64,000 nt of DNA from Gemmatimonadaceae bacterium (GTDB lineage Bacteria > Gemmatimonadota > Gemmatimonadetes > Gemmatimonadales > Gemmatimonadaceae). The number at the start of each line of letters is the position of its first letter. The stretch's first letter is position 1. The notes beneath the pieces are model-generated. The model saw nothing but the letters and a program-made list of their open reading frames with translations, did no database searches and was not told the DNA's origin. The position numbers and the translations under genes were made by a program. The stretch is taken from NCBI GenBank assembly GCA_019186945.1, contig JABAQJ010000017.1, forward strand, positions 62,001 to 126,000, read 5' to 3'. Shown one piece after another: positions 36,785 through 58,196 of the stretch.

Positions 36785-37312
36785 ATGCGCTCGCTATGGA
36801 TTGCTTTGCGACTGACCGTCATGGCGCTGGCCGTCGCATGCGGCGAGCAGGTGCCGGCAGTAGTGGAGGTTGGCCAGTCGGCCCCGGTGTACTCGGCGGA
36901 AACGCTGGACGGACGCACGATCTCGACAATGTCGCTTTCGGGACGCGTCGTACTGCTCAACGTGTGGGCGACCTGGTGCGCTCCCTGTCGGGAAGAAATC
37001 CCCTATCTGCAGCGGCTTCATCAGACGCGCGAGAAGGACGGGCTGTCCATCGTCGGTGTGAGCGTCGACGCCGCCGGAGAGGATGCCAGGATCTCGGCGT
37101 TCGTGAAGGAGTTCGCGATGACCTACCCGGTCTGGCGCGATCCCAACGAGCGGATTCTCACGCAATTCATGGCGATCGGCGTGCCGGCGTCGTACCTCAT
37201 CGATCGTCGCGGCGTGCTCGTGTGGAAGCACGTCGGTATCGTCCGTGAGACGAACACCGAGTTTACGGACGCCCTGGAGCAGGCGTTAGGCGATACCACG
37301 GGTTCGGACTGA
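36785..37312 (+). CDS. TlpA/ResA-like thioredoxin-fold lipoprotein
   Basis: A 175-residue protein. The lipoprotein signal MRSLWIALRLTVMALAVAC is followed by a thioredoxin fold: VGQSAPVYSAETLDGRTIS, NVWATWCAPCREEIPYL with the redox pair WCAPC, then GVPASYLIDRRGVLVWKHVG with the cis-proline. Members reduce disulfides outside the membrane, often of apocytochrome c, or serve copper delivery. Its gene follows the sialidase-like gene by 7 bases, and that protein's CDCC cysteines are a possible client. It ends two bases from the convergent giant surface gene. A CGTTAGGC motif encodes its Leu-Gly near the end. Confidence 0.93.
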   Translation: MRSLWIALRLTVMALAVACGEQVPAVVEVGQSAPVYSAETLDGRTISTMSLSGRVVLLNVWATWCAPCREEIPYLQRLHQTREKDGLSIVGVSVDAAGEDARISAFVKEFAMTYPVWRDPNERILTQFMAIGVPASYLIDRRGVLVWKHVGIVRETNTEFTDALEQALGDTTGSD

Positions 37313-37313
37313 T

Positions 37314-40300
37314 TCAGGGCGCTGGTTTGAGCGGCACGGCCACCAGCGCCCACGGGCGGGCCGCAGAAGCGGTCCAGCTCATGGTCATCGTCGTTGCCCC
37401 GGCCTTGCTGGAGCCACTGGCAACCACATTATCGACTCCGAGAAGCGACCCCGACTGCCCGACCCAGTGACGCGTCTGGCCAGTTCCTGCCGTAACTGTC
37501 TCGGCGCTGTTCTGCTTGGCGGCAACGTCGATCACCACCTGACCCGCGCCGCTGGATACCGTCAGCGACGCCGCCGTACTGGCCGACTGTGCCTTGGTGA
37601 CCGCTGTGCCTAACGGTGTAGTCTGATGTACGCCGGTGAACGAGACCGCGCCACCCGCCATGGCTCCCGACTTTCCGCCCGCGAGCGCGACAGCGATTGT
37701 TCGCGTCCCGGTCGGCGGATTGACGAGGTACCACAGCTCCGCCCGAACGTTCTTGCCCTGCGTGACCGCTCCCACGCGCGTCATGGGGGCGGTTCCCCAC
37801 TTCACCGAGGCCACCGTCTGGGTATTGTTGGCTCTAATGCCCACGGAAACGATGAGGATGCGATTGGTGCCAGTCGTACCTATCGTGTGACTCCAGGACA
37901 ACGTCCTCAGGGAGAACAGCCCGGTGCTGGAGCTGGATGACCGATCGACGGCGATTGCCTGACCTTGGACGAATCCGAAGTCTACTCCCGCATCGACGCC
38001 AGAATGAGTCGCCAGCGTCACAGAGGTCGGGCTGCCGTTGCTGTCCTTGAGCGGATCGCCGCCCTGCCCGGACAGCGTCGGACTGTACCCGCTTGGGGTG
38101 ACCACTGTGACGGTGTAGCTGCCGGCGAACAGCCCCGCAAACGCGTAGCTGCCGTTGGCCGCGGTGATGGTGCTGGCGTTACCGGCGCCAGAGAGCGTAA
38201 CCGTGACGCCCGCCAGTCCTGGTTCGCCCGCGTCCTGAATGCCGTTTGCGTTGAGATCGTTCCACACGAAATCGCCGATCGAGCCCGTCCCTCTGACGAA
38301 GCCGACGTCCACGGACACGTCCATCGTGGACGACGTTGCCAGTGTGACGGAGGCCGGAGAGCCGTTGCTGTCCCGGGCCGGATCCGCACCCTGCGCCGTC
38401 GGACTCAAGATGTACCCGTTGGGGGTGGCGACCGTCACGGAATAGGTACCCCCAGCCAGCGACGTGAACGAGTACGCGCCCGTGGCGTCGGTAGTAGCAA
38501 CCTGGGTGCCACCAGGACCGTTCAGCGTCACGGTTGCACCCGCGATCCCGGCCTCGCCGGGATCCTGGATGCCATTGCCGTCCGCGTCATCCCAGACCAG
38601 GTCGCCGATCTGCCCCGTGGCAATCGCCGCAAATCCGAAGTCGATCCCGTCGGCCGCGCTGTTGTTCGCTGCGAGTGTTACTGCAGCCGGACTCCCGTCG
38701 CTGTCCTTCGACGGATCGCTCCCCTGATTCGACGGACTCGCCTGGTAGCCTGCTGGCGTCGATACCGAAATCGTGTAGGAGCCGGCGAAGAGTCCATCGA
38801 ACGAATAGCTGCCGTCGGACGCCGTCGTCGTGCTGCCGCTGGCCGCGCCTGTGAGCAGAACGACCACCCCTGCCAAGCCTGGCTCGCCTTGATCCTGGAG
38901 GCCGTTTCCATTGGCATCGTCCCACACGAAGTCGCCGATCGAACCGATTCCCTTCGTAAAGCCGAAATCGACTGACAGGTCGCTCGTCGACGGAGTGGCC
39001 AACACGATCGTGGCGGGATTGCCGTTGCTATCCTTGAGCGAATCGCCGCCCTGCGCCGTAGGCGATGGGACATACCCGTTAGGCGTCGCGACCGCGATCG
39101 AGTAGCTGCCTGCATCCAACCCGCTGAACACGTAGTGTCCGGCCACGTCCGTCGTGGTGGACAGTGGCCCGCCGGGGCCCGTCAGGTTCACTGCTACGCC
39201 AGCGATTCCAGGCTCGGCAACGTCCTGCACGCCGTTGCCGTTCGCGTCGTACCATACCACATCGCCGATCTCACCAATCCGATTCAGCACGAAACCGGCA
39301 TCGATGCTCAAATCCGCACTCGCGTTGGTCGCCAGCACAACGCTCGCTGGGCTCCCGTTGCTGTCCCTGAGTGGATCGCCGCCTTGGCCGAGGAGAGTTG
39401 GATTGTACCCGACTGGCGTGCTGACCGATATCGTGTACGCGCCAGCGAACAGCCCTCCGAAAACATAGTGTCCGGTCGAGTCTGTCGTGGTCACCGCCGT
39501 CGCGGCCCCGCTGAGTGCAACGCTCACGCCCGCCATTCCCGGTTCGCCCGGATCCTGCACGCCGTCCCCGTTCAGATCATTCCAGATGAAGTTTCCGAGC
39601 GCTCCCGCTCCCATGGTGAAACCGAAGTCGACGGAACCGTCGATCGTCGCGCTGGTGGACATGGTCACGGAAGCCGGGCTCCCATTGCTGTCCTTGGCTG
39701 GATCCGAACCTTGCGACGATGGCGTGGTGACGAACCCGTTCGGTGTCGCCGCATCGATCGTATAGGTGCCGGCGGCAAGGCCCGAGAAGCTGTAGTGACC
39801 AGTGCCATCGGTGGTGGTGGTGCGTGGACCGCCGGGTCCGTTAAGCGATATCGTCACGCCCGCGATCCCAGGTTCAGCCACGTCCTGAACGCCATTCGCA
39901 TCGACGTCGTACCAGACGAAGTCTCCGATCTCCGCCAACGCGGGCTGTCTGAACCCGAAGTCGACACTGAGGTCCGTGGCCGCATTCGTCGCCAGCGAAA
40001 CCGCCGCCGGATTGACGTTGCTGTCCTTGAGCGGATCGCTTCCCTGGTTCGCCGGTGTCGGAACATAGCCGCCAGGCGCAACCACGGTCACGGTGTAGGT
40101 TCCTGCGAACAGATTCCCGAACACGTAGTGTCCAGTCGCATCCGTCACCGTGCTCGCCGACGCGTCACCCGACAGCGACACCGTAACGCCGGCGAGTCCG
40201 GGTTCGCCCACATCCTGCACGCCATTGCCATCGAGGTCGTCCCACACCGCGTCTCCGATGGCACCGACGCCCATCGTGAACCCGACATCGATCGAGGAAT

Positions 40301-43300
40301 CTACCGTCCTGTTGTTCGCCAGAACGACCGTCGCTGGACTCCCGTTGCTGTCCATCTGCGAATCGCCGCCCTGCGCCGATGGCGAGGCAATGAAACCGTT
40401 GGGCGCGGCGACGGTGACGACATAGCTGCCGGCGCCCAAACCAGTGAACTCGTAATGCCCCGTGCCGTCCGTCGTGGCCGACAGCGGCCCGCCGGGGCCC
40501 GCCAGGTTCACGGTCACGCCAGCGATTCCGGGCTCGGCGGCATCCTGCACGCCATTGCCGTTCACGTCGTACCAGACGATGTCGCCGATTTGCCCGCTCA
40601 GGATTTCGACAAATCCGAAATCCGCCGACAAGTCCGCGCTTGCGTTGGTCGCCAGCGTCAGCGTCGTTGGGCTGCCGTTGCTGTCCTTCAGCGGATCGCC
40701 GCCCTGACCTGCCGGCGATGGGCCATAGCCATCTGGCGTCGCCACCGTCACCGTATACGTACCGGCGAACAGGCTGCCGAACACGTAGTGACCCGCCGCA
40801 TCTGTCGTCGTGCTGCCGCTCGCCGCACCTGACAGGTTAACTGTCACACCCCCGAGACCAGGCTCGCCTGCGTCTTGTACGCCGTTGCCGTTCAGGTCAT
40901 TCCAGACGACATCGCCGATCGCACCGTTGCCCTGAGTGAAGCCGAAATCGACCGAGACATCGACGCTCGTGTTGGTCGGCAGCGTCGTCGTTGCCGGACT
41001 GCCGTTGCTGTCGGTCAGAGAATCGCTACCCTGAGCGGGAGGAGTAGCCGTGAACCCGACCGGAGCAGCAACCGAGATCGTGTAGCTGCCGGCGCCAAGC
41101 CCGCTAAAGCTGTAGTGGCCAGTTCCGTCCGTTGTTGTCGTGCGCTGACCGCCAGGTCCGTTCAGAGTCACCGTCACACCGCCGATCCCGGGCTCTGCGA
41201 GATCCTGAATGCCATTGGCATTGACGTCGTACCACACGAAGTCGCCGAGCTGTCCGACCTGGTTTTCCCTGAAGCCAATGTCGATCGACAGGTCCGAACT
41301 GGCGTTCGTTGTCAGCGTCACACTTGCAGGGCTGGCGTTGCTGTCCATCAGCGGATCCCCCCCTTGGGCAGTTGGCGCAGGCGAGTAGCCGGCCGGGGTC
41401 GCGACAGCGATCGTGTACGCACCGGCGAACAGACCGGCGAACGCGTAGTGCCCGCTTGCATCGGTCGTGGCTGTAGCTGATGCGTCTCCGGAGAGCGTCA
41501 CAGTGAGGCCAGCAAAGCCAGGTTCTCCACTGTCCTGAATCCCATCGCCATCGACGTCATCCCAGACGAAGTCACCAATGACACCCGTCCCCATCGTGAA
41601 CCCGATGTCGATCGACGGATCGACGGTTTGGTTGCCCGTCAGGGTCACCATCGCCGGGCTCCCGTTGGAGTCGACGAGACGGTCGCTTCCCTGGTTCATC
41701 GGCGTGGCCACGAAGCCGTTCGGCGCCGAAACAGTCACGGTGTAGCTGCCGGCACTCAGCGCCGTAAACTCGTAGCGGCCGGCGGCATCTGTGGTGGCCG
41801 TGTACGGACCGCCGGGCCCGGTCAACACGACCATGACACCGGCAATACCGGGCTCACCGGCATCCTGAAGTCCGTCGCCATCGACATCGTACCACACGAG
41901 GTCGCCGATTCGTGCCGCCGGATCCTCGATGTACCCGAAATCCACCGCAAGCTCGGCTGTGGCGTTCGTCGCAAGGGTCACGTTGACAGGGCTGCCGTTG
42001 CTGTCCTTGAGCGGATCCCCACCCATGCCCACCGGAGATGCCGAGAAGCCGGGCGGCGCGGCGACGGTGATCGTGTAGCTGCCGGCGATCAGTCCGCCAA
42101 AGACGTAGTGCCCGACGGCATCCGTTACGGTAGTCGCCGTCGCAGCTCCCGTCAGGATCACCTGTACGCCGGCCAGCCCGGGTTCTCCGGAATCCTGGAT
42201 GCCGTTGCCGTTCAGGTCGTTCCAGACGAAGTCCCCTATTGCGCCCGTACCTTGCGTGAAACCGACATCCACCGCGAGTGTGGAGCTGGTGTTCGTGGCG
42301 AGCACCACCGTGGCCGGACTGCCGTCGCTGTCGGTGTCGCGATCCAGCCCTTGCATTGCCGGTGCGGGCACGAAACCGCTGGGAGTCGCTACTGCGATGG
42401 TGTAGCTGCCGGCCGCCAGACCGGCAAAGCGGTAGTGGCCGGTGCTGTCGGTGGTCGTCACGAACGGGCCACCGGGCCCAGTCATGGTCACCGCATGTCC
42501 ACCGATTCCCGGCTCGAGAGCATCCTGCAGCCCATTGCCGTTCACATCGTACCACACGAAATCGCCGATCTCGCCCGCCGGTGTTTGCCTGAACCCGACG
42601 TCAATCGAGAGTTCGGAAGCCGCGTTCGACGTCAGCACCACCGTTGCTGGGCTGCCGTTGCTGTCCCTGAGTGGATCGCCGCCCTGTTGCGATGGCGAGG
42701 CGCTGTACCCGTTCGGCGCTGTAACCGAGATCGAGTAGGTGCCGGCGAACAGGCTCCCGAACACGTAGTGCCCGGCGGCGTCCGTGGTGGTTGTGGCCGA
42801 AGCGTCACCCGAGAGCGTAACAGCCAATCCTGCCAGGCCCGGCTCGCCACCGTCCTGAATCCCGTCTCCATCGAGATCCTCCCAGACGTAGTCGCCAATT
42901 ACCCCCGCACCCATGGTAAACCCGATGTCCAGCGACATGTCCGCGCTGGCGTTCCCGATCAGCGTTACTGGCGCCGGACTGCCGTTGGAGTCCGTCTCAG
43001 GGGCCGATCCGGGAGCCTGGGTCGGCGCCGGCACGAAACCAGGAGGAGTCGCGACCGCGACGGTGTAGCTGCCGGCAGCGAGTCCGGTGAACAGATAGCG
43101 TCCCGTGCCATCCGTCGTCGTGGTTTGGGATCCTCCCGGCCCCGACAACTGGACCGTCAGCCCCGCGATCCCAGGTTCGGCCGCGTCCTGAATGCCGTTC
43201 CCATCCACGTCGTACCAGACCAGGTCGCCGATTTGACCCGCCAGGTTCACCACGAAGCCGAAGTCGATTGCCAACGCCGAACCGGCATTCCCGTTCAGTG

Positions 43301-46292
43301 TGACCGATGCCGGGCTGGCATCGGAATCCTTCAGCGGATCGCCCCCCTGCTGAACGGGACTGGCGCTGTACCCGCCCGGCATGGTCACGGTGACGGAATA
43401 GGTGCCGGCGAACAAGCCACCGAACACGTAGCCACCAGTGGCATCCGTAGTCGTAGTGGCCGACGCCGCGCCGCCTAACGTCACTACGACTCCAGGGATC
43501 CCTGGCTCGCCCGCATCCTGAACGCCGTTGCCATTTGTGTCGTCCCAGACGAAGTCGCCAATGACGCCCACGTCTTTGGTGAAACCGAAATCGATGGAGA
43601 CATCCGAACTGCCGCTCGTCGCCAGCGTGACAGTCGCCGGACTGTCGTCCGAATCGTTGTCGCTCGTACTGCCGCTGGCGCGCGCGACAGTGGGCACGAA
43701 ACCGGACGGTGTTGCCACACTGACGGTGTAGCTGCCGGCGGCCAGGCCGCTGAACAGATAGTGACCCGATCCATCGGTCGCGACCGTCACCGGTCCACCG
43801 GGACCGGACAGCGTCACGTCGACGCCGCCGATCCCCGGCTCGGCCATGTCCTGAATCCCGTTGCCGTCGACGTCATACCACACGACATCGCCGATTTGGC
43901 CGCTGCGAATCTGGACGAAGCCAAAGTCCGTCGACAGGTGGGATCCAGTGTTCGTCATCAGCGTCACCGAAGCCGGGCTGCCGTCCGAGTCCTGAAGCGG
44001 ATTTCCCCCCTGGCCGGCAGGGCTCGGCACGTATCCCGGAGGGGTCGCGACAGCGACGGTGTAGTCGCCAGCGAAGAGCGCACCGAACGAGTAGAATCCG
44101 CTCGCATCCGTGACAGTCTGGGCGCTGGCTGCGCCGGAAAGAATCACCTGCACCCCGGGAAGGCCCGGTTCGCCGACATCCTGGATACCATCGCCATCGA
44201 CGTCGTCCCAGACGAAGTCGCCGATCGTCCCCATACCTCGCGTGAAACCGACGTCGATCGTCGGCTCCCTGCTGGCATTGGTGCCTAACGTGACGGTTGC
44301 CGGACTGCCATCGCTGTCGGTTCCGGCATCGTTGCCCTGCGTTGTCGGCGAAAGCACGTAGCCGCTCGGCGTCGTCACGGACAGCGTGTACGTGCCCACA
44401 CCAAGACCGCTGAAGACGTAATGACCAGTGGAATCGGTCGTGGTGCTCCGTACGCCGCCCGGCCCCGACAGCGTCACGTCCACGCCCGCAAGGCCCTGCT
44501 CTCCAGCGTCCTGGACGCCGTTGCCATCGGCGTCGTACCAGACCAAATCCCCGATCTCGCCCGTCTGATTCTCGACGAAACCGGCATCGACGGCCAAGTC
44601 CGTGCTCGAGTTCGTGGGGAGCGTCACCGTAACGGGGCTGGCGTTGCTGTCCTTTAGCGGATCCGACCCCTGGTTCGATGGCGACGGACTGAAGCCGGCG
44701 GGCGTGGCTACGGTGACGGTGTAGTTTCCTGCGAGAAGGCCAGCGAACACGTAGTCGCCATTCGCGCCCGTCGTCGTCGTTGCAGTCGCCGAGCCGGACA
44801 AGGTAACCTGCACTCCAGCGAGACCGGGTTCGCCGACATCCTGGATACCGTCGCGATTCAGATCATTCCAGACAAAGTTGCCGATCGCGCCAGTTCCGCG
44901 AGTGAATCCGATGTCGATCGACGCATCGGCGGTCGCGTTGGTTGCCAGAGTGACGCCGGCTGGACTGCCGTCCGAATCGTTGCTTGCGGTGCTGCCGGGC
45001 GCGTGGACCGTGGTGGGGACGAAGCCATCGGGTGTGGCTACGGAGACGGTGTAGCTGCCGGCAGGCAAGCCGGAGAATGCGTATTGACCGCTGCCATTGG
45101 TTGTGCCGGTGCGATTGACGCCCGGACCGACCAGGGTGACCGTGAGCCCTGCCAGACCCGGCTCGCCAGCGTCCTGAATGCCGTTGCCGTCGACATCGTA
45201 CCAGACCACGTCGCCCACCTGGCCGGTGTTGTCGAACCACCACGATGCGGCGAATGGGTCCGACTTGAAGCCGGCAACGAGCCTCGGACCTGCCTTGTCC
45301 ACACCACCGCGGATGAAATGGATTCCTGCCGTGTCGTAGTCGGCACACACCACTGACAGGCCGTTGTCGTTCGGAACGATACCATTCGAGAACAGATGCG
45401 CGCCCCACCCGACCCAGGGCGCAACGACGGGTCCAAGGTCGGGATCCGCATTCATGTTCCCCCGACCAGCGATCTGGTCCTCGATGATCCACTTGAGGCC
45501 GAACCCCTGTTCGAAATTGTTAGGCTCTGGCCCGGTACCGGGGCGGTAGCCCTGATAGTAGTGCGTCGTCAGGTACGCCAGCCTTGTGTTCGGATATCGC
45601 TGCTTGAACATGCGGATGACGACTTCCATGCTGTCGCGATAGTTTTCCTGCTCGAGCGGAAAGCCATAGACAGGCGGCCGGGTTTCGCCCAGCATGAACC
45701 ACACGACCTGTACCTGGGCAGGCGTCACGCCGGCCAGCGAGAGTCGGTAGTCGACACCAAGCCACGCAGTATCGCTCGGTACCAGCCACGAGCGGATGGA
45801 CTTCGCCTTCTGCGCACCATTTACGATGATCAGCCTGGGGTTCTTCGATGCGTCGGCATCAGCCAGCGGCTTGTACGCATTCGCGTAGATGCCGGCGATG
45901 CCGGCGGAGTCTCCGGCGAACACGCGTGCTGCTGTGGAAGCGCCGACCGATACTTGCACGATCTTCCCGTTGACCAGATCCACATTCCCATTTCCGTCGC
46001 GCGGCTGAACTTCCGCTGCCATGCGATAGCCGAGGGCCACGTGCGCCGGCGGCATGACGTTCGAACCGCCGGGATAGTTCCCTCCCTGCGATCCGAGATA
46101 GGTGGATGTGCCTAACGACGGAATCGCCGTCACGCCCGCAATGGAGGTCCGCGTGCACGCTGGAGCCAGGATCTGACCTGGGTCTGCCGGCAGCGCCGGG
46201 GGGCCAGTCGCGGGGTCGAGGTCCGTTGCCATCTTGCAGGCGGCCACGAACGCCGCGATCACTCCGGCAACGCGCCATCCCTTGCGCATCAT
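37314..46292 (-). CDS. Giant surface lipoprotein with 22 SdrD_B-like repeats
   Basis: A 2992-residue protein. It starts MMRKGWRVAGVIAAFVAACK, a lipoprotein signal with lipobox VAAC. Residues 20-356 are a unique domain shared with its neighbour (marks: STYLGSQGG, GKIVQVSVGASTAARVFAGD, THYYQGYRPG, GIHFIRGGVDKAG), a little like SGNH hydrolases. Then 22 repeats of about 110 residues run to about residue 2776, each with a calcium-loop-like DVDGNGIQDAGEPG. A C-terminal domain of about 216 residues ends WALVAVPLKPAP. It should form a long calcium-stiffened rod at the cell surface. The ATG overlaps the neighbour's stop as ATGA, so the two are one operon. Confidence 0.93.
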   Translation of the reverse strand: MMRKGWRVAGVIAAFVAACKMATDLDPATGPPALPADPGQILAPACTRTSIAGVTAIPSLGTSTYLGSQGGNYPGGSNVMPPAHVALGYRMAAEVQPRDGNGNVDLVNGKIVQVSVGASTAARVFAGDSAGIAGIYANAYKPLADADASKNPRLIIVNGAQKAKSIRSWLVPSDTAWLGVDYRLSLAGVTPAQVQVVWFMLGETRPPVYGFPLEQENYRDSMEVVIRMFKQRYPNTRLAYLTTHYYQGYRPGTGPEPNNFEQGFGLKWIIEDQIAGRGNMNADPDLGPVVAPWVGWGAHLFSNGIVPNDNGLSVVCADYDTAGIHFIRGGVDKAGPRLVAGFKSDPFAASWWFDNTGQVGDVVWYDVDGNGIQDAGEPGLAGLTVTLVGPGVNRTGTTNGSGQYAFSGLPAGSYTVSVATPDGFVPTTVHAPGSTASNDSDGSPAGVTLATNATADASIDIGFTRGTGAIGNFVWNDLNRDGIQDVGEPGLAGVQVTLSGSATATTTTGANGDYVFAGLLAGNYTVTVATPAGFSPSPSNQGSDPLKDSNASPVTVTLPTNSSTDLAVDAGFVENQTGEIGDLVWYDADGNGVQDAGEQGLAGVDVTLSGPGGVRSTTTDSTGHYVFSGLGVGTYTLSVTTPSGYVLSPTTQGNDAGTDSDGSPATVTLGTNASREPTIDVGFTRGMGTIGDFVWDDVDGDGIQDVGEPGLPGVQVILSGAASAQTVTDASGFYSFGALFAGDYTVAVATPPGYVPSPAGQGGNPLQDSDGSPASVTLMTNTGSHLSTDFGFVQIRSGQIGDVVWYDVDGNGIQDMAEPGIGGVDVTLSGPGGPVTVATDGSGHYLFSGLAAGSYTVSVATPSGFVPTVARASGSTSDNDSDDSPATVTLATSGSSDVSIDFGFTKDVGVIGDFVWDDTNGNGVQDAGEPGIPGVVVTLGGAASATTTTDATGGYVFGGLFAGTYSVTVTMPGGYSASPVQQGGDPLKDSDASPASVTLNGNAGSALAIDFGFVVNLAGQIGDLVWYDVDGNGIQDAAEPGIAGLTVQLSGPGGSQTTTTDGTGRYLFTGLAAGSYTVAVATPPGFVPAPTQAPGSAPETDSNGSPAPVTLIGNASADMSLDIGFTMGAGVIGDYVWEDLDGDGIQDGGEPGLAGLAVTLSGDASATTTTDAAGHYVFGSLFAGTYSISVTAPNGYSASPSQQGGDPLRDSNGSPATVVLTSNAASELSIDVGFRQTPAGEIGDFVWYDVNGNGLQDALEPGIGGHAVTMTGPGGPFVTTTDSTGHYRFAGLAAGSYTIAVATPSGFVPAPAMQGLDRDTDSDGSPATVVLATNTSSTLAVDVGFTQGTGAIGDFVWNDLNGNGIQDSGEPGLAGVQVILTGAATATTVTDAVGHYVFGGLIAGSYTITVAAPPGFSASPVGMGGDPLKDSNGSPVNVTLATNATAELAVDFGYIEDPAARIGDLVWYDVDGDGLQDAGEPGIAGVMVVLTGPGGPYTATTDAAGRYEFTALSAGSYTVTVSAPNGFVATPMNQGSDRLVDSNGSPAMVTLTGNQTVDPSIDIGFTMGTGVIGDFVWDDVDGDGIQDSGEPGFAGLTVTLSGDASATATTDASGHYAFAGLFAGAYTIAVATPAGYSPAPTAQGGDPLMDSNASPASVTLTTNASSDLSIDIGFRENQVGQLGDFVWYDVNANGIQDLAEPGIGGVTVTLNGPGGQRTTTTDGTGHYSFSGLGAGSYTISVAAPVGFTATPPAQGSDSLTDSNGSPATTTLPTNTSVDVSVDFGFTQGNGAIGDVVWNDLNGNGVQDAGEPGLGGVTVNLSGAASGSTTTDAAGHYVFGSLFAGTYTVTVATPDGYGPSPAGQGGDPLKDSNGSPTTLTLATNASADLSADFGFVEILSGQIGDIVWYDVNGNGVQDAAEPGIAGVTVNLAGPGGPLSATTDGTGHYEFTGLGAGSYVVTVAAPNGFIASPSAQGGDSQMDSNGSPATVVLANNRTVDSSIDVGFTMGVGAIGDAVWDDLDGNGVQDVGEPGLAGVTVSLSGDASASTVTDATGHYVFGNLFAGTYTVTVVAPGGYVPTPANQGSDPLKDSNVNPAAVSLATNAATDLSVDFGFRQPALAEIGDFVWYDVDANGVQDVAEPGIAGVTISLNGPGGPRTTTTDGTGHYSFSGLAAGTYTIDAATPNGFVTTPSSQGSDPAKDSNGSPASVTMSTSATIDGSVDFGFTMGAGALGNFIWNDLNGDGVQDPGEPGMAGVSVALSGAATAVTTTDSTGHYVFGGLFAGAYTISVSTPVGYNPTLLGQGGDPLRDSNGSPASVVLATNASADLSIDAGFVLNRIGEIGDVVWYDANGNGVQDVAEPGIAGVAVNLTGPGGPLSTTTDVAGHYVFSGLDAGSYSIAVATPNGYVPSPTAQGGDSLKDSNGNPATIVLATPSTSDLSVDFGFTKGIGSIGDFVWDDANGNGLQDQGEPGLAGVVVLLTGAASGSTTTASDGSYSFDGLFAGSYTISVSTPAGYQASPSNQGSDPSKDSDGSPAAVTLAANNSAADGIDFGFAAIATGQIGDLVWDDADGNGIQDPGEAGIAGATVTLNGPGGTQVATTDATGAYSFTSLAGGTYSVTVATPNGYILSPTAQGADPARDSNGSPASVTLATSSTMDVSVDVGFVRGTGSIGDFVWNDLNANGIQDAGEPGLAGVTVTLSGAGNASTITAANGSYAFAGLFAGSYTVTVVTPSGYSPTLSGQGGDPLKDSNGSPTSVTLATHSGVDAGVDFGFVQGQAIAVDRSSSSSTGLFSLRTLSWSHTIGTTGTNRILIVSVGIRANNTQTVASVKWGTAPMTRVGAVTQGKNVRAELWYLVNPPTGTRTIAVALAGGKSGAMAGGAVSFTGVHQTTPLGTAVTKAQSASTAASLTVSSGAGQVVIDVAAKQNSAETVTAGTGQTRHWVGQSGSLLGVDNVVASGSSKAGATTMTMSWTASAARPWALVAVPLKPAP
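37967..45224 (-). repeat. 22 SdrD_B-type repeats in alternating A/B order
   Basis: The region holds 22 coding repeats of about 330 bp (7258 bp in all). Odd repeats (A) read IGDxVWYDVDGNGIQD with GPGG in the next strand; even repeats (B) read GxGxIGDFVWNDLNGNGIQD with GAAT or GDAS. The order is strictly A-B eleven times, so the unit of duplication was probably a 660-bp pair. Copies differ at many bases and are not recent perfect duplicates, though stretches for GGDPLKDSNGSP stay nearly the same. Confidence 0.92.
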
Positions 46293-49051
46293 GGCGCGGG
46301 CCTCAACGGGACCGCCACTATCGCCCACGCTCGCGCGGCGGACGACGTCCACTTCATCGTGACGCTGTTGGCTCCCGGACGTTCCGACGCCGCGGCCACC
46401 ACGTTGTCGCTTCCATTCGTTCGGCTCGTCTTGGCGGTCCAGCGTTGTAGCTGGCCGACAGCCGGAATCACCGGCTCCAGGGCGTTCTGCTTGACGACCG
46501 CGTCGACGACGACCTCGCGAGCGGTACTGGCTACCGTCATCGAGACCGCCTTACCGGATGCAACCGTCTTCGTCACTGCGCTGCCGAGTGGCACCGTCTG
46601 GTGCACCCCCGTATAGGAGACTGCTCCAGCCACCATGCCCGTAGCCGCACCGGAGAGCGTCACCTTGATCGTGCGGATGCCGGTCGGCGGGTTGATCAGA
46701 TACCAGAGTTCGGACCTGACGGCGCTCCCCTGTGTGACGCCCTTGATTCTGGTGAGGCTGGCACCACCCCACTTCACGCTGGAGACGGTTTGACCCGCTT
46801 TCGCACGCACGCCGACGGAGACAAGCAGAATGCGGTACGTACCTGACCCAGTAACCTTATGGCTCCAGCTCAGGCTCGAGGCGACGGCCCCTGCTGTCGT
46901 GGCGTTCGACGTGTTATCGATCACGATGACCTGCCCAGGCACAAACCCGAAATCGACTCCGCTGTCGACGCTCGCGTTCGTCGCCAGCGTCACGGATGCC
47001 GGGCTGCCGTTGGAGTCCTTGAACGGATCCTGTCCCTGGTTAGGCAGCGTTGGACTGTATCCGGCCGGAGCAGCGATGCTTACGGTGTAGCTGCCGGCAG
47101 CCAGACCGGCGAACAGGTAGCGACCGGCTGCGTCCGTCGTCGTTCCCACGGTCCCTCCCGGACCTGTAAGCGTTACGGCAACACCGGCCAGTCCGGATTC
47201 ACCAGTATCCTGCAAGCCGTTCCCGTCAGCGTCGTTCCACACGAAGTCGCCGATCGACCCGTTCGCGTCAGGCACGAATCCGAAGTCGATGCCCGTCACG
47301 ATCTCGCTTGGTACAGTCAGTGTCACCGCTGTCGGACTCGGATCGCTGTCACGCTCCGGGTCGCTCCCCTGCTTCGCCGGTGTGGGCTGATACGCCGCCG
47401 GAGTCGTGACCGAGACAGCGTACGTACCGGGACCGAGCCCGGTGAAGACGTAGTGCCCAGTGGCATCGGTCGTTGCAGACGCTGTCGCGGCTCCGGACAG
47501 CATCACGGAGACACCCGCCAAGCCCGGTTCGCCCGGATCCTGAATGCCATTGCCGTCGGTATCCGACCAGACCAGGTCGCCAATCTGTCCCGTCGGCTGC
47601 TGCGTAAAGCCGATGTCGAGAGACAGATCCACAGCCCGGTTGGTGGCGAGTACGACCGCGGCAGGACTGCCGTTGCTGTCCATGAGGGAATCGCTCCCCT
47701 GCCGTGTCGGGCTGAGCGAGTACCCACCAGGCGTTGCCGCTGTTACCGTGTAGCTCCCCGCAGGAACCGCCGTGAACAGGAATGCGCCATTCGCGTCTGT
47801 CGTCGTGCTCCGGTTCACCGCCGGCCCGGAGAGCGTAACCGTGACATTCGACAGCCCCGGCTCTCCCGAATCCTGAATCCCGTCGCCATCCACGTCGTCC
47901 CAGACGCGATCGCCGATCTGACCGGTGTTGTCGAGCCACCACGAGACGGCTGTGGGGTCTGTGCGGAAGACACTCTCGATGGCTGGGCCGGCCTTGTTCA
48001 CGCCGGGACGCATGAGGTGCACTCCGTTCGAATCGAAATCCGAACAGATGAAGAACAGGCCATCCGCGTTGGGGACGATACCGTTGGTCCACAGGTGACG
48101 TGCCCATCCCAGCCACGGCGCCGTGACCACACCGCGCGCCGGATCCGCGTTCATGTTCCGCTGCCCCGTGATCTGGTCCTCGATCACCCACTTCAGCCCG
48201 AAGCCCTGCTCATAGTTCTGCGGTTCCGTGTTGCCCGGCCGGTACCCCTGGTAGTAGTGCGTGCTGAGATATCCCAGCTTCATGTTCGGGTAGCGCGCCT
48301 TCGCCATTCGGATCACGACCTCCATGCTGTCGCGATAATTCCGGGCTTCCTGCGGGAACCCTGTCGTCGGCGGACGTCCTTCGGCGATCATGAACCAGCC
48401 CACCTGGACTTGCGCCGGCGTTACTCCGGCAGCGGCGAGTCGCTGATCCGCGATGATCCATGCAGAGTCCGCTGGATCCAGCCAGTACTTGAGCGGCTTG
48501 TTCGCCTGCGCCGTGTTGACGATGACGAGCCTGGGATTCTTGTCCGGGTCCGCGTCGGCGAATGGCTTGTACGCGGTCTGGATAACCCCATTCATCAGGG
48601 CAGAGTCGCCAGCAAAAACACGGACCGCCGTGGATGCACCGAAAGACACTTGTACGACCTTTCCGTTGAAAGGATCGACGGCACCGCTGGCGTCGCGCGG
48701 CTGCACTTCGGAAGCGAGGCTCAGTCCCAGGCTCAGGTGAGCAGCGGGGATCGTGTTCGTTCCGCCGGGATACATCCCGCCCTGCTCACCGAGGTACGTC
48801 CCAGTGCCCAACTGCGGGATCGAAACCAGACCGGGAATGGATGTCCTCGCGCAATTGGCGAGGAACACTCCGGCGCGACTTCCTTCCAGCGTCTGACGCA
48901 CGCCAGGCGCGTCGTGCTCCACGATTCGCTCGCACGCCACTGCGAGCAATGGAAAGACCAGCCACGCAAGGCGTGACAACGTTCCGCGCCCGGGACAGGA
49001 CTCGCAGCCCAAGCCGTGATGCTGCTCCCGACCACCTTGTTCCCACATCAT
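46289..49051 (-). CDS. Surface lipoprotein with 3 SdrD_B-like repeats, paralogue of the giant protein
   Basis: A 920-residue lipoprotein. A long N-region (MMWEQGGREQHHGLGCESC) precedes a hydrophobic stretch with lipobox LLAVAC. Residues 60-375 match the N-terminal domain of the giant protein closely (STYLG/GTYLG, THYYQGYRPG, GLKWVIEDQITG, GVHLMRPGVNKAG). Three SdrD_B-like repeats follow, then the same C-terminal domain ending WAIVAVPLRPAP. ATG 49051 is chosen over 49066 because GGAGGGGGG lies just upstream, 8 bases off. First gene of a two-gene operon; a CRP-like palindrome lies 85 bp upstream. Likely a short and a long version of the same surface device. Confidence 0.92.
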   Translation of the reverse strand: MMWEQGGREQHHGLGCESCPGRGTLSRLAWLVFPLLAVACERIVEHDAPGVRQTLEGSRAGVFLANCARTSIPGLVSIPQLGTGTYLGEQGGMYPGGTNTIPAAHLSLGLSLASEVQPRDASGAVDPFNGKVVQVSFGASTAVRVFAGDSALMNGVIQTAYKPFADADPDKNPRLVIVNTAQANKPLKYWLDPADSAWIIADQRLAAAGVTPAQVQVGWFMIAEGRPPTTGFPQEARNYRDSMEVVIRMAKARYPNMKLGYLSTHYYQGYRPGNTEPQNYEQGFGLKWVIEDQITGQRNMNADPARGVVTAPWLGWARHLWTNGIVPNADGLFFICSDFDSNGVHLMRPGVNKAGPAIESVFRTDPTAVSWWLDNTGQIGDRVWDDVDGDGIQDSGEPGLSNVTVTLSGPAVNRSTTTDANGAFLFTAVPAGSYTVTAATPGGYSLSPTRQGSDSLMDSNGSPAAVVLATNRAVDLSLDIGFTQQPTGQIGDLVWSDTDGNGIQDPGEPGLAGVSVMLSGAATASATTDATGHYVFTGLGPGTYAVSVTTPAAYQPTPAKQGSDPERDSDPSPTAVTLTVPSEIVTGIDFGFVPDANGSIGDFVWNDADGNGLQDTGESGLAGVAVTLTGPGGTVGTTTDAAGRYLFAGLAAGSYTVSIAAPAGYSPTLPNQGQDPFKDSNGSPASVTLATNASVDSGVDFGFVPGQVIVIDNTSNATTAGAVASSLSWSHKVTGSGTYRILLVSVGVRAKAGQTVSSVKWGGASLTRIKGVTQGSAVRSELWYLINPPTGIRTIKVTLSGAATGMVAGAVSYTGVHQTVPLGSAVTKTVASGKAVSMTVASTAREVVVDAVVKQNALEPVIPAVGQLQRWTAKTSRTNGSDNVVAAASERPGANSVTMKWTSSAARAWAIVAVPLRPAP
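46940..47925 (-). repeat. Three SdrD_B-type repeats
   Basis: Three coding repeats of about 330 bp inside the 920-residue lipoprotein, each with a DxDGxGIQDxGE-type loop (DVDGDGIQDSGEPG, DTDGNGIQDPGEPG, DADGNGLQDTGESG). They do not show the strict A/B alternation of the neighbouring gene. Confidence 0.88.
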
Positions 49052-49135
49052 CGTGCCCCCCTCCATAGCGTGTCTTCCATGTCACGCTGCCACCCCGAGC
49101 CTCACGTACAACACTCGCGATCGAACTCGCGAAAG

Positions 49136-49744: not shown

Positions 49745-50953
49745 GTGATACGACTCGGTTCGTTCGACCCTGCGGTGTCCCCGGCCGCGCGCGAGGAATA
49801 CCTGAGGCGCGTCGAGGAAGCAACGCGCGTACGCATTTCGGACCTCGCTGACGGAAGCGACCGCATTGCGCTCGTCCCTCTGCAGACAGATGCACAACAA
49901 CCGATGTCAGTTACCGACATCCAGCAGGGGCTGGCGGCGGCGGGTTTCTTTCCCAGCGGAGCCATCGATGGTATCTGCGGCTACCGCACGCTCTCTGCCA
50001 TGCGCCTGTTCCAGGAGTATGTCCGTACGGTCGAGGGTCTGCCGATGATTCCCGACGGACGATTCGGCGCTACGTCGCAGCAACAACTGAGGCGCTGGAT
50101 TTCTGCTCGCCTGACGACACGATGGGAGCCGACCATCCGGGCATGGCGCACCGGACCGTCGGGCGCCGGCGAATACGCGGACTGGCTGAACTTGCTGGAC
50201 CGGGTGAAACAGCGATATCTCGCCAGCCCCAACAGGATGCTGCAATTGGTTTCGGCATTCACCAGAGCGTCGGACACTCGCGACGTCACGCGCTGGGATT
50301 TCTCCCCTGATGCCATCCATCTGATCGGCGTACGTCGACAGGAAGCGTCAGGAAAGTTCGACGACATCTTCGTTCTGTTGATCAAGGGCCTGGTATTCAA
50401 GTTCCAGGGTTCCACCGAGCCAGGATCATCCACGAATCCGGCGGGCGTCCCGTACCTGGTACAGGGACAACATGACTACCATTTCGGCTGGCACAAGAAG
50501 CAGTATCTCGCGCTTCGCCCGCTGCATCTGGACCGAGGCGTACTGGTAGTCCGCTCTGGGGATCTGCGACTGGACGAAGCCGACCTGGACAATGGTCTGG
50601 AGGCGAACGCATCGATCAACGTACATTGGGGCGGCAAGGGGAGGACGTTCGATGTGAAGTCCTGGTCCGAGGGCTGCCAGGTGATAAATGGATCGGCGTA
50701 TGTCGACGACGAGGATGCGCTCATCGACTGCTCCACATTCGCCGCAGCCAACAACGGCGAACTGGCGGCGAACCCGTCGCGCACGCGCGGTGCGTACAAC
50801 GTCCTGCTGGATCTGGTAACGGCCATGTCAGGCGATATGTCGAGCAATGCGGTGCGTTACACGCTGCTGGTGGAGTCCGACCTCGATCTCGCCCCTTCCC
50901 TGAAGCAGCGTCTCATCGACGCGCGTGCCAGGGCGGTCGCCATTCTCGCCTGA
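49745..50953 (+). CDS. Peptidoglycan-binding protein with YkuD-like C-terminal domain
   Basis: A 402-residue protein. A peptidoglycan-binding helix bundle lies at about residues 54-118: VTDIQQGLAAAGFFPSGAID, GYRTLSAMRLFQEYV, DGRFGATSQQQL. The second half has INVHWGGKGRTFDVKSWSEG then CQVI, an H-x(15-20)-S-x-GC pattern like the L,D-transpeptidase YkuD active site. No signal peptide is seen. GTG 49745 is supported by AGGAAG 5 bases upstream. It may be a cell-wall cross-linking or lytic enzyme, perhaps from a phage-like or secretion-like source, but no such neighbours are present. 27 bases separate it from the next gene. Confidence 0.78.
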   Translation: MIRLGSFDPAVSPAAREEYLRRVEEATRVRISDLADGSDRIALVPLQTDAQQPMSVTDIQQGLAAAGFFPSGAIDGICGYRTLSAMRLFQEYVRTVEGLPMIPDGRFGATSQQQLRRWISARLTTRWEPTIRAWRTGPSGAGEYADWLNLLDRVKQRYLASPNRMLQLVSAFTRASDTRDVTRWDFSPDAIHLIGVRRQEASGKFDDIFVLLIKGLVFKFQGSTEPGSSTNPAGVPYLVQGQHDYHFGWHKKQYLALRPLHLDRGVLVVRSGDLRLDEADLDNGLEANASINVHWGGKGRTFDVKSWSEGCQVINGSAYVDDEDALIDCSTFAAANNGELAANPSRTRGAYNVLLDLVTAMSGDMSSNAVRYTLLVESDLDLAPSLKQRLIDARARAVAILA

Positions 50954-51582: not shown

Positions 51583-54500
51583 CTACGAAATCGTCTTCTT
51601 CGGGACGACGACGCCGGGAACGCCCTTCTCCTTCAGCAGCGCATTGAATCGTTCGATGTCGTTCATCAACGCGTCGAGTCTGGCGCGGATCTGCGTCCAC
51701 TGCGCCTCCACCTCGACCGCGCGGCTCGTCATTCCCTGCGTCGGTGCAGCATCGCTGTTGTCGATGGCGCTTTGCAGGTAGGCGAACTGCGCGCTGATAC
51801 CGTTCCGGAAATTGATGATGTCCTGCCCGTTCCTGGATTTAGCCTGCGCCATGCTCTCGTCGACCGTGTCGGCGCGCGCTGCCAGACTCTGACCCATCGT
51901 TACCAGCTGCGCCCCATCGACGACGCCCTTGGCGCGATCGGCAGCATCCTTCACCTGGTCACGAACGTTGCGCAGGTCCAGCACGCTTTGATGAATCTCG
52001 TTCATGCGCTGCCAGATCGACTTTGCCGCCGCGACGGCGCGTTCACGATCCGCATTCGACACGTCGACGCGTGGATCGCCAACGACGGTAACCTGCTCGG
52101 AGAGCGTGCGTCCATCCGCCAACAGGCGCACCGTGTATTGTCCCGGTGCCACACGGTAGCCGATCACCGGGTCCGGCAAGAAAAGGCCCGGTACCGTGAC
52201 GGGCGGCATGCTGCGAAGGTCCCATGCGAACGAGTTCATTCCTTTGCGTCCGGGCAGCGTTCCCGAGGCGGTTCCACCGCCGAAGGGTCTGCCGCCTCCG
52301 GCGGCGCTGCGGTTCGGATCGGGCTTGCTGCTGTAGGTGCGCACGATGTTGCCGGCAGCGTCGACGATCTCCAGCTTCACCTCACGAGTGGAGTCAGCCG
52401 GCTGCGTCAACACGTACCGGATGTTCGCGCCGGGTACGGGATTCCGCCCCGCTCCGTTGCCGCTGCCAGCATCCCAGTCGATGCGTAACGCCTGACGCGG
52501 CTTGAACAGGAAGGGACCGGTCGCCACGCGCGCCTGGGCCATCTGACGCAGTGGCGTGACGTCGTCCATGATCCAGAAGGCGCGCCCCTCTGTCGAAATT
52601 GCCAGATCGTCGTGATGAACCTTGAGGTCCGTCACGGGCACGTGCGGCAGGTTCCTCTGCAACGACTGCCAGTTACCGCCATCGTCGAAGGAGACGTAGA
52701 CGCCGCGTTCGGTCCCGGCATAAAGCAGTCCCTTGAGAACGTTGTCTTCCCGGATCACGCGAGTCGCTTCCACGGTCGGTATCCCGGTCGTGATTCTGGT
52801 CCACGTCTGCCCGAAATCGGTCGTCCTGAACAGGTATGGCTGGTCGTCGTTCCACTTGTACCGCATCATCGCGATGTAGGCCGTCCCCGCGTCGAAATGC
52901 GATGGATCTATCGCATTGACGATTGCATCGTTGGGTCCGTTCTTCGGCGTCACGTTTACCCACGTCTTCCCGTCGTCTCGCGTGAGTTGCACGTTGCCGT
53001 CGTCAGTGCCAACCCAGATGACCCCGCGTTGTACCGGCGATTCGCTCACCGCGAATATCGTCCCGTAGATCTCGCCGCCAGCGCCTTCGTTCGTGATCGG
53101 AAAGCCGCCGACTCCCTGCCTCGACTTGTCGTTCCGGGTCAGATCCGGACTGATGACGGTCCACGTGAACCCTCGATCGTTGGAGCGGAAGACGACGTTG
53201 GCCGCGTGATAGATCGTGCTTCCGTCGTGCGGCGACCCCATGACGGGCGAGTTCCAGTTGAAGCGGTACTTCATCTGATCGCTCGGCTCAGCAAGACCTA
53301 ACGCAGGCCATGACTGCACGTTCCTCCGCATCCCTGTCACCCGGTCGTATTCCTCTATGATCCCCTGATAGCAGTTTGCATACGTGAAGCGCGGATTCTT
53401 CGGGTCGAAGGTGACATGGGCGCTCTCGCAGCCGCCATGGATCTCCCAGTCCTTGTCGCCAATCTCGAACGAGCCGAATACGCGGCTCTTGATCGCCACC
53501 GATGTGTTGTCCTGCTGGCCACCGTACACGAAGTAGTCGGGCGCGTCGTCGGCGCTGATGCGGTAGATCTGCGCCGTTGGCTGGTTGTTCTGCGTGGACC
53601 ACGACTTGCCGCCGTTGAGCGTGATCGACCCACCCCCATCGTTCGCGTTCGCCATCACCAGCGGATTGGCCGGATTGATCCACAACCAGTGGTTGTCCCC
53701 GTGCGTGGCTGGCAACACCTGAAACGTTCGACCGCCGTCGATCGACTTCCAGATCGGCGCGTTCATCACGTAGACGACGTCGGCATTCGTCGGATCGGCA
53801 AACACGTTCATGTAGTACCAGGAACGCGCGCGGATGTCCGTAGTTTCCACCAGCCGACGCCAGGTTGCACCTGCATCGTCCGAGCGGAAGAAACCGCCGT
53901 CGGCGGCCTCGATTATCGCGAAGACACGATCCGGATTGGCTGGCGACACGGCCACGCCGATCTTCCCCATCAACGCTGGCAAACCGTTCGTCAGGCGATT
54001 CCACGTCTCGCCACCGTCGGTCGACTTCCATATCCCGCTGTTCGGCCCGCCCGAGCGCACCTGCCAAGGCACACGCTGGTGCTCCCAGAACGCCGCGTAC
54101 AGCACGCGCGGATTCGCAGGATCCATGCTGAGCGCGCTGACCCCGGCTTTGGGATCGACGAACAGCACGCGGCGAAACGTACGACCTCCATCGGTCGACT
54201 TGTAGACGCCACGATCCTCGGTCGGCGCCCAGCGACTCCCTTGCGCCCCGACATAGACGATGTCGCTATTCCTTGGGTGGACGACGACGGCGGAGATCTG
54301 CTTTGTCGCCTCCAGCCCCAGATGCGACCACGTTCGGCCAGCGTCGGTCGACTTGTAGACGCCGTCGCCGTGCGACGACGCAACGCCACGCACCGGATGC
54401 TCGCCCATACCGACGTATATCACGTTCGGATCGTCGTCAGCTACCGCGATCGCCCCAACGCTGCCTGTCCTGAAATACTTGTCGGTTATGTTGCGCCAAT

Positions 54501-54798
54501 TGAGTCCCGCATCGTCGGTCTTCCACACACCACCGCCAGTCGTGCCCATGTAGAACGTCAGAGGTTGCGACGGAACCCCGGCGATCGCGACCGCACGTCC
54601 GCCACGGAACGGGCCGATGGAGCGCCATTCGAGCGCCTGCAGTAGAGACGAGTCGACAGCGGGCGCCGCGATCGGCGCCTGAGCGACGGTCTGAGGCGCG
54701 GTACGCGGGCGCTGGCCGCGCACCTCGATCGGAACACTGAGCACGATCGCCGCGAGCGACGCGGCAACAAGGCGGGGAAAACGATGAAGTCGCAGCAT
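51583..54798 (-). CDS. Secreted BNR/VPS10-like beta-propeller protein
   Basis: A 1071-residue protein. The signal peptide is MLRLHRFPRLVAASLAAIVL, ending near RGQ. The propeller shows many BNR/sortilin Asp-box strands: TGGGVWKTDDAGLNW, GVYKSTDAGRTWSHLG, GIWKSTDGGETWNRL, VFRSNDRGFTWTV, RTTDFGQTWTRI. A C-terminal beta domain (GLFLPDPVIGYRVAPGQYTV) and a helical tail follow. Such exoproteins are often labelled glycosyl hydrolase, but catalytic residues are not evident here. It has a shorter relative at 58197 with the same plan. Start and signal are clear; its promoter lies in 54799-54928 beside the M20 gene. Confidence 0.9.
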   Translation of the reverse strand: MLRLHRFPRLVAASLAAIVLSVPIEVRGQRPRTAPQTVAQAPIAAPAVDSSLLQALEWRSIGPFRGGRAVAIAGVPSQPLTFYMGTTGGGVWKTDDAGLNWRNITDKYFRTGSVGAIAVADDDPNVIYVGMGEHPVRGVASSHGDGVYKSTDAGRTWSHLGLEATKQISAVVVHPRNSDIVYVGAQGSRWAPTEDRGVYKSTDGGRTFRRVLFVDPKAGVSALSMDPANPRVLYAAFWEHQRVPWQVRSGGPNSGIWKSTDGGETWNRLTNGLPALMGKIGVAVSPANPDRVFAIIEAADGGFFRSDDAGATWRRLVETTDIRARSWYYMNVFADPTNADVVYVMNAPIWKSIDGGRTFQVLPATHGDNHWLWINPANPLVMANANDGGGSITLNGGKSWSTQNNQPTAQIYRISADDAPDYFVYGGQQDNTSVAIKSRVFGSFEIGDKDWEIHGGCESAHVTFDPKNPRFTYANCYQGIIEEYDRVTGMRRNVQSWPALGLAEPSDQMKYRFNWNSPVMGSPHDGSTIYHAANVVFRSNDRGFTWTVISPDLTRNDKSRQGVGGFPITNEGAGGEIYGTIFAVSESPVQRGVIWVGTDDGNVQLTRDDGKTWVNVTPKNGPNDAIVNAIDPSHFDAGTAYIAMMRYKWNDDQPYLFRTTDFGQTWTRITTGIPTVEATRVIREDNVLKGLLYAGTERGVYVSFDDGGNWQSLQRNLPHVPVTDLKVHHDDLAISTEGRAFWIMDDVTPLRQMAQARVATGPFLFKPRQALRIDWDAGSGNGAGRNPVPGANIRYVLTQPADSTREVKLEIVDAAGNIVRTYSSKPDPNRSAAGGGRPFGGGTASGTLPGRKGMNSFAWDLRSMPPVTVPGLFLPDPVIGYRVAPGQYTVRLLADGRTLSEQVTVVGDPRVDVSNADRERAVAAAKSIWQRMNEIHQSVLDLRNVRDQVKDAADRAKGVVDGAQLVTMGQSLAARADTVDESMAQAKSRNGQDIINFRNGISAQFAYLQSAIDNSDAAPTQGMTSRAVEVEAQWTQIRARLDALMNDIERFNALLKEKGVPGVVVPKKTIS

Positions 54799-54928
54799 GG
54801 GTCGTGGGATAACTGAAGGGCGCCGCCGCGCTGGAGTAGCGGGACGTCGAGAAACTACTGCCGCCGAGACAAGCGCGGAACGCGTGGTATGGCTGGTAAT
54901 CGCCGTACCGAGGTTCGGTGCAATCCGG

Positions 54929-56215
54929 TTACTGAACGACCCGGCTGGTTGCGGCGGTGCCGTCGCTGAGGGCGACCGCAAGCAACAGGACCATCTTCGC
55001 TGCCGGCAACGCACTCGGCCAGTACGCCCATTCGGAGAGCGTGTGCTGGTTCCCTCCAACCGACCGGCCGATCGAGATGGACGGAATCCCGCGCACCACG
55101 CCCATGTTCGCGTCCGTCGAGCCGGTCGCGACAGCGTCTTTCCCGGAAGGACCGATGTCGATACCCAGGAAGTTGTGAACGTCGATTGCCGTCTGGACGA
55201 TCGGGTGTGAACGAGCGTTGGTAAGCATCGCTTCGGTACCCCCGGCCCTGTTGTGCTGCACGATCTCCTTCCTCGTCTCCACGCCTTCCTGCCTCGCTGC
55301 GGCCACCACGACGCGGTCAATCTCGCCATCCAGCGAGTCGAGCAAGGCCGGATTCGGCGAGCGGAGATCCATGGTGAAGTACAGTTCCTGCGGGATGCCG
55401 TTGAAGATCGCGCCGCCGTGCACCTGCCCCACGTTGGCGACAGCGCCGTTAGGCAGCGGCGGGAAACGCAACGCGTATACTTGTCCGATTGCATCCGCCA
55501 GCGCCTTCACCGGGGTTGGCTTGCCACGCGATGTCACGGTGTGCGATCCCGGGCCCGTAAAGAAGTACCTGGTCCAGTAGATGCCGAGCGCCCCGTAGTT
55601 GATCGGTCCCAGCCCACCGTCCATCGCGACGAGGATGTCTGGCTTCGGGTTGTGCTCCAGCCAGTAGTCCATGCCGCGCAAGCCGAGTTCCTCCTGGGTC
55701 GTGCCTATGAACACGAAGTTGGCGGCGGTCTTGATGGCGGCCGCGCGCATGGCCCGAATGACGGCGAGCATGTTCGCGACGCTGGCGCTGTTATCGAAGA
55801 TCCCCGGCGCTCGAAGAGTGTCGCCATCGCGCCGCACCGTGAGGTCTGTCGCTGGCGGATGAACGATGTCGATGTGGGCGGCGAAGACTATCGTCGGCCC
55901 GGGGCGTCGTTCCTTGAGGCGCCCGACCACGTTCCCGATCGAATCGACGGTTACCGACATCCCTTCCGCCTCCATCATTCGTCGCAAGTAGACGCCGCGC
56001 TCCTGCTCGTGTTCGGACTTTCCCGGCATTTCGGCAATGCGAATCCACTCTTCGACCTGCTTCGGGAAATTGCGTTCGAGATACGTCAGCGCCGACTTGA
56101 CGTCCGGACGTTCGGCAAGTGCGGGCGACCACAGCGTAGGGTACGACCGCTGAGCGCCCAGCATGCCGAACGGGGAGACGACGAGTAGAAGGAAGCAGAA
56201 GATGCGTGCGGACAT
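54929..56215 (-). CDS. Secreted M20 family metallopeptidase
   Basis: A 428-residue protein with signal MSARIFCFLLLVVSPFGMLG ending AQ. The M20 metal site is visible: VFAAHIDIVHPP (first histidine), APGIFDNSASVANML (bridging aspartate), TTQEELGLRGM (catalytic Glu pair), VAMDGG, and NQHTLSEWAYW with the last histidine. It should trim peptides or dipeptides in the periplasm, beside the S9 enzyme. ATG 56215 marks the signal peptide start; the GTG 56263 extension is not needed. The gene downstream on the same strand is the BNR/VPS10-like protein, 130 bp away. The upstream frame is a decayed gene. Confidence 0.93.
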   Translation of the reverse strand: MSARIFCFLLLVVSPFGMLGAQRSYPTLWSPALAERPDVKSALTYLERNFPKQVEEWIRIAEMPGKSEHEQERGVYLRRMMEAEGMSVTVDSIGNVVGRLKERRPGPTIVFAAHIDIVHPPATDLTVRRDGDTLRAPGIFDNSASVANMLAVIRAMRAAAIKTAANFVFIGTTQEELGLRGMDYWLEHNPKPDILVAMDGGLGPINYGALGIYWTRYFFTGPGSHTVTSRGKPTPVKALADAIGQVYALRFPPLPNGAVANVGQVHGGAIFNGIPQELYFTMDLRSPNPALLDSLDGEIDRVVVAAARQEGVETRKEIVQHNRAGGTEAMLTNARSHPIVQTAIDVHNFLGIDIGPSGKDAVATGSTDANMGVVRGIPSISIGRSVGGNQHTLSEWAYWPSALPAAKMVLLLAVALSDGTAATSRVVQ

Positions 56216-57880: not shown

Positions 57881-57956
57881 TCCTGTCATCTCCACAAGTT
57901 GAACGGGCTGCGCCCGTAAGATCCATGTTGCACGGGGACGCGCTACAGCTACGGGA

Positions 57957-57994
57957 AACCAGATGCTTCGTCAAGAACCAGATGCTTCGTCAAG
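57957..57994. repeat. Tandem 19-bp duplication in a divergent promoter region
   Basis: AACCAGATGCTTCGTCAAG occurs twice without a gap. It sits in the 316-bp gap (57881-58196) between the divergent CsgG-like and BNR/VPS10-like genes, which otherwise holds no gene. The copy number may vary between strains, and promoter spacing on either side would change with it. Confidence 0.8.
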
Positions 57995-58196
57995 AACGAA
58001 AGCCCGCAGACAATATGCGCGGAATGCGAGCGAAAACCGTCACCCGGACAGTTCCCAGCCCAGACCAGCAAGACGAATGCCGATCTGCTGCGCGCTCGCT
58101 CGCGAAGGCGGCGCCCGTTCGCTAACATCGTGTTCACCACATGCCGCGGTACTCTCCCTCGAGTGTTCGCTTCCTCGCAAGCAAGGAGCTGTTCGG

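Follow-up and report, generated by a model that had tools for sequence, protein, structure and literature searches.

In a 64,000-nucleotide stretch of DNA from a Gemmatimonadaceae bacterium (the window), two overlapping genes encode proteins of 920 and 2992 residues that follow one layout: a putative signal sequence, a degenerate SGNH-like N-terminal domain, an array of SdrD_B repeats (3 in the short protein, 22 in the long one), and a C-terminal domain with the predicted fold of a phage minor tail protein domain. The reading that we favor, with a probability of about 0.5, is that the pair are two surface adhesins of one layout that act at two fixed reaches. The diverged sequences of the end domains, the loss of catalytic residues from the N-terminal domain, and the age of the repeat arrays all bear on this reading and on its alternatives, and are considered in turn below.

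The gene pair

The lengths, coordinates, and ATGA overlap that an earlier note had given for the two genes are exact (Table 1). On the minus strand, the ATG of the long gene shares bases with the TGA of the short gene, and the GAGG sequence of the long gene is positioned 8 bases 5′ of its ATG, within the final codons of the short gene. The overlap and the GAGG permit translational coupling, but the earlier statement that the two must be made together was an inference beyond this. A promoter scan returned none, with 1.6 expected from shuffles. Candidate lipobox-like motifs followed by a cysteine were read by eye in both proteins and also in several free-standing relatives of the N-terminal domain.

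The operon stands alone. A thioredoxin-like gene (36785–37312) converges on it from one side, and a PG_binding_1 gene (49745–50953) on the opposite strand points away from it on the other. None of the genes beside the pair was recognizable as encoding a partner, a surface layer, or an assembly factor, and no phage tail genes were recognized near it.

Table 1. Positions in the window of the two genes, their translation signals, and the domains of their products.
Feature	Position	Strand	Remarks
Short gene, predicted 920-aa lipoprotein	46289..49051	(-)	Putative signal peptide, then degenerate SGNH domain, three SdrD_B repeats, and C domain resembling tail proteins
Ribosome-binding site of short gene	49056..49063	(-)	GGAGGGGG, read from sequence
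Cys40 of short protein	48932..48934	(-)	Candidate lipidation site (LLAVA-C), from sequence
N domain of short protein	47921..48853	(-)	SGNH-like; DxxH Asp replaced by Asn
SdrD_B repeats of short protein	46931..47923	(-)	3 repeats (111, 110, 110 aa), EF-hand-type loop in each
C domain of short protein	46292..46933	(-)	All-beta, predicted phage minor-tail-protein fold
Long gene, predicted 2992-aa lipoprotein	37314..46292	(-)	Layout of the short gene, with 22 SdrD_B repeats
Ribosome-binding site of long gene	46301..46304	(-)	GAGG, read from sequence
Cys19 of long protein	46236..46238	(-)	Candidate lipidation site (FVAA-C), from sequence
N domain of long protein	45222..46157	(-)	SGNH-like; DxxH Asp replaced by Ala
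SdrD_B repeats of long protein	37959..45224	(-)	22 repeats (109-111 aa), A-B x 11, EF-hand-type loop in each
C domain of long protein	37317..37961	(-)	Same family as the C domain of the short protein

The SdrD_B repeat arrays

The counts of 3 and 22 repeats are confirmed by two approaches, as PF17210 matches, all above the family cut-off, agree with direct motif parsing. Taken over whole proteins, the Pfam E-values of 0 (long) and 1.1e-85 (short) exclude chance matches, and the rest of the genome contains no further SdrD_B domains above the cut-off. The D-x-[DN]-x-[DN]-G loop and the 109–111-residue period are kept in all 25 repeats, the 22-repeat frame with its 110-residue period is intact, and the B repeats match the solved SdrD structure with an E-value of 9e-45.

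The long array is a series of eleven A-B dimers built from two alternating repeat types: repeats two places apart (lag 2) share 62.5% identity on average, against 54.0% for adjacent ones (lag 1), a pattern that was not equaled in 10,000 shufflings of the order. The repeat tree places S1 among the type A repeats, S2 beside L20, and S3 beside L22, all at moderate support, and the final short repeat is nearest to the final long repeat (69.7% identity). The pair probably goes back to the duplication of a gene with several repeats already in place, after which the arrays diverged in length; in the simplest history, the duplicated gene already bore an A-B array, and dimers were then gained or lost. 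The best repeat pair reaches 74% DNA identity and Tandem Repeats Finder (TRF) detected no tandem array, indicating that the array is old and seemingly not slippage-prone, and its length appears to be fixed rather than phase-variable. An origin of the count of 22 in slippage or misassembly was also considered and is unlikely, since the repeats differ enough from one another to be assembled correctly.

The N-terminal domain, a degenerate relative of SGNH hydrolases

The earlier note did not put a name to the N-terminal domain. Pfam and NCBIfam give it no name, with no match above threshold and only weak direct matches to Pfam GDSL families (best E 0.014), but profile comparison identifies the domain as a remote relative of the SGNH/GDSL hydrolases. 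In hhalign comparisons with domain-bounded PF13472 (SGNH/GDSL) proteins from related genomes, the N-terminal domain reached scores of 37.6–45.8, against 14.5 ± 2.8 and a maximum of 21.7 for column-shuffled controls (n = 60), and the alignment spans the entire domain, in register and with the blocks in order. The AlphaFold2 (AF2) model has a pLDDT of 51 and an alternating alpha/beta order, and its top fold matches in the PDB are mostly SGNH esterases, none of them at E ≤ 0.001; as the model is poor, these matches serve as supporting evidence only. A profile of 23 relatives of the domain gave chance matches only when compared with PDB sequences.

The conserved blocks of the family are GMSNTTQE, NGAxGG, and DGTHPS. 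The aspartate of the DxxH motif is kept in 33 of 34 relatives and is absent from both copies of the pair, and the Gly-Gly of block II is likewise lost in both. The nucleophile serine and the histidine are kept in each, leaving the Ser-Asp-His triad incomplete. Because the DxxH aspartate and the block II glycines are lost, both N-terminal domains are probably inactive, and the best reading of their sequences is that they are pseudoenzymes. A full match of this domain to an enzyme family that explained the pair, which the earlier note had named as evidence against its proposal, was thus found in part: the family has an enzyme fold, but both copies of the pair have lost catalytic residues, and the pair is not explained by it.

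The two N-terminal domains form one clade on a long stem with 100/100 support. Their family consists mostly of free-standing proteins that retain the serine and the Asp-x-x-His motif; it is present in 38 of 395 sampled genomes of the phylum from which the window comes, about a tenth, and also occurs in Verrucomicrobiota and Planctomycetota. Two free-standing relatives (L040 and L041) carry glycine in place of the nucleophile serine, and L041 also lacks the DxxH aspartate, so that catalysis has apparently been lost elsewhere in the family too. One Planctomycetota genome (G418) encodes two copies (L009 and L011), one of which has an additional N-terminal stretch.

The C-terminal domain and its resemblance to phage tail proteins

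The C-terminal domain, which ends in PAP in both proteins, has no above-threshold match in Pfam or NCBIfam, and its profile has no match among PDB sequences. Its structural model (pLDDT 79, pTM 0.83) has the predicted fold of a phage minor tail protein domain. A Foldseek search with the model returned 80 viral models at E ≤ 0.001, many of which are named minor tail protein (mycobacteriophages), and no solved structure at the same threshold. The best matches are unnamed tailed-phage proteins (E 2e-14, TM 0.87), those named as phage minor tail proteins reach E-values down to 4.6e-12, and PHROG 553 (minor tail protein) matches the domain with an E-value of 3e-14. A tblastn search of annotated phage records gave no match and one of plasmids gave one partial match; relatives of the domain are located on viral contigs. 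Within the phylum the domain is rare (3 of 298 sampled genomes, including the present one), and one of the two other carriers is a large multidomain exoprotein.

Other virion domains of the mycobacteriophage Douge attach to the host surface (PMC13033339), which makes an adhesive role for the C-terminal domain plausible.

Divergence of the two copies and their distribution

According to the earlier note, the two proteins share their end domains, and repeat number is nearly all that sets them apart. The ends are indeed homologous, but they have diverged to 65% amino acid identity in the N-terminal domain and 55% in the C-terminal domain, with synonymous sites near saturation. The dN/dS between the paralogues (NG86) is about 0.15 for the N-terminal and 0.24 for the C-terminal domain, with dS near saturation; these low ratios suggest that both copies have been kept by selection. 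As the domains flanking the repeats have diverged, the two proteins may bind different things, and the idea of one rod made in two lengths is weakened, since the diverged ends may have different targets.

No adjacent short/long pair was found in the genomes covered (395 from the phylum, 59 from nearest relatives, and 289 from a verrucomicrobial phylum), a sample in which the genus is represented by one genome, the present one. The pair is known from this genome only, a result that the earlier note had said would count against its proposal, and which does so in part. In the same three genome sets, no N-domain protein outside the present pair lies in a frame longer than 673 residues, so that in no relative is this domain part of a long rod. 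In the family, the rods that come nearest, for example a 736-residue frame with three B repeats, carry other end domains. Four SdrD_B proteins of the same bacterial family (L047, L049, L050, and L051) end in a common C-T-x-G-Y-W-K-(N/T)-H domain and represent a separate rod architecture.

Proposed function and alternative explanations

On the favored reading, the operon would produce two paralogous lipid-anchored surface rods. After lipidation and export to the surface, the N-terminal lipid would keep each protein in the outer membrane, where the presumably dead SGNH-type domain beside the membrane could serve as a scaffold or bind glycan of the wall or the surface. The SdrD_B repeats would form a stalk, presumably stiffened by calcium bound in the EF-hand-type loops, and the C-terminal domain would form a distal binding tip. 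With 3 repeats in the short stalk and 22 in the long one, related tips would be held at two fixed distances, very roughly 10–15 nm and 90–100 nm by our estimate of about 4 nm per repeat. The proposal of two reach lengths on the surface is a reasonable one with a precedent in the sdr locus (PMC3775735), but no pair was found in the relatives sampled. A stronger claim, that the 3:22 contrast in length between these phage-tail-type-tipped rods is itself a selected trait, for example for contact at two distances or for layering of the surface by rod length, we consider rather doubtful. Both kinds of module, the SdrD_B repeat and the phage-like beta domain, are also present in exoproteins that have no known adhesive role, which counts against adhesion.

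The main competing explanation is ordinary paralogue divergence, in which the copies of a duplicated surface protein drifted apart, each toward a target of its own, and the unequal arrays are a by-product. We regard this as possible, though less probable than a pair of adhesins: end domains that are just 65% and 55% identical, a change in length that must be old (at most 74% DNA identity between repeats, and no TRF array), and the lack of a conserved pair in relatives all fit it, but the two genes have kept a four-base overlap that could allow co-translation, the long frame and its period are intact, and dN/dS is low in both copies. It is improbable, judging from the catalytic residues, that the N-terminal domain works as an esterase on surface glycan at two tether lengths, docked by the C-terminal domain. 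Its family does align with the GDSL hydrolases, and the serine and histidine of the SGNH-type triad could still work as a dyad; however, the aspartate that 33 of 34 relatives keep has become asparagine or alanine, the block II Gly-Gly is gone from both copies, and, as the domain adjoins the presumed anchor, rod length would not position it.

Two further explanations were rejected as very improbable. The ruler-like system suggested in the earlier note, taken here to mean that the two rods together define surface-layer spacing or the gap between cells, draws on the two fixed lengths, the regular 110-residue period, and the possible translational coupling; it found no support, as neither a partner nor a structure to be measured is encoded beside the pair, where the flanking genes specify a thioredoxin-like and a PG_binding_1 protein, and nothing in the sequence measures length. 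A periscope-type phase-variable adhesin, with two allele lengths side by side, would account for a many-repeat surface rod whose lengths differ, but such proteins are by definition built of highly identical repeats (PMC9704523), and the identity of the repeats here, 74% in DNA for the best pair, is too low.

Comparison with known systems

The nearest precedent for the pair is the sdr locus of Staphylococcus aureus, which likewise encodes paralogous surface proteins that differ in their numbers of B repeats: SdrC, SdrE, and SdrD carry 2, 3, and 5 B repeats of 110–113 residues, each with an EF-hand loop (PMC3775735). SdrE is stabilized by Ca2+, and the B repeats have been hypothesized to serve as spacers (PMC3775735). 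The sdr proteins, however, bind ligands through an A domain at the N terminus, carry SD repeats and an LPXTG anchor, and are made from three separate transcripts, whereas the present pair has a presumed N-terminal lipid anchor, a C-terminal binding candidate, overlapping genes, and 3 versus 22 repeats. The pair has no Pfam match to an MSCRAMM A domain, its N-terminal domain being alpha/beta and SGNH-like rather than IgG-like, and both proteins lack an LPXTG sortase signal and C-terminal SD repeats, their C terminus being all-beta. As the A domain, the SD region, and the LPXTG signal are absent, the two proteins are not members of the Sdr family.

Similarly to the Periscope Proteins, the pair would form single-chain rods in which the number of repeats sets the projection of the binding domain (PMC8201768, PMC9704523). 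In Sgo_0707, however, adjacent domains share 82–100% identity (PMC8201768), whereas the repeats here are far from identical and the two lengths are fixed in two genes. The N-terminal domain resembles the SGNH/GDSL hydrolases (PF13472) in its block order, serine nucleophile, and histidine, and differs from them in lacking the DxxH aspartate, the block II Gly-Gly, and an above-threshold Pfam match. The C-terminal domain shares its predicted fold and weak sequence similarity with the PHROG 553 minor tail proteins but, unlike these, caps a bacterial lipoprotein rod.

Variation in stalk length has usually been examined by comparing strains of pathogens. In the present case, a single operon that stands alone, in an organism outside the Gram-positive sortase world, encodes two fixed stalk lengths next to each other, and a tip related to virus tails is combined with a base that probably derives from a broken enzyme. 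Names also become available for two domains that are absent from current family libraries or listed there only as phage domains. Swapping or deleting a single stalk would be a simple genetic way to ask whether reach by itself makes a difference.

Other genes in the window

About 8 kb from the pair, a protein with a CsgG domain and an SH3_3-like tail is encoded at 56927–57895 (-); the CsgG domain is that of the curli secretion component's family. Two large Sortilin-Vps10/BNR-repeat proteins are encoded close together on opposite strands, at 51583–55494 (-) and 57963–61211 (+), and the listed frame of the former opens well upstream of its likely start.
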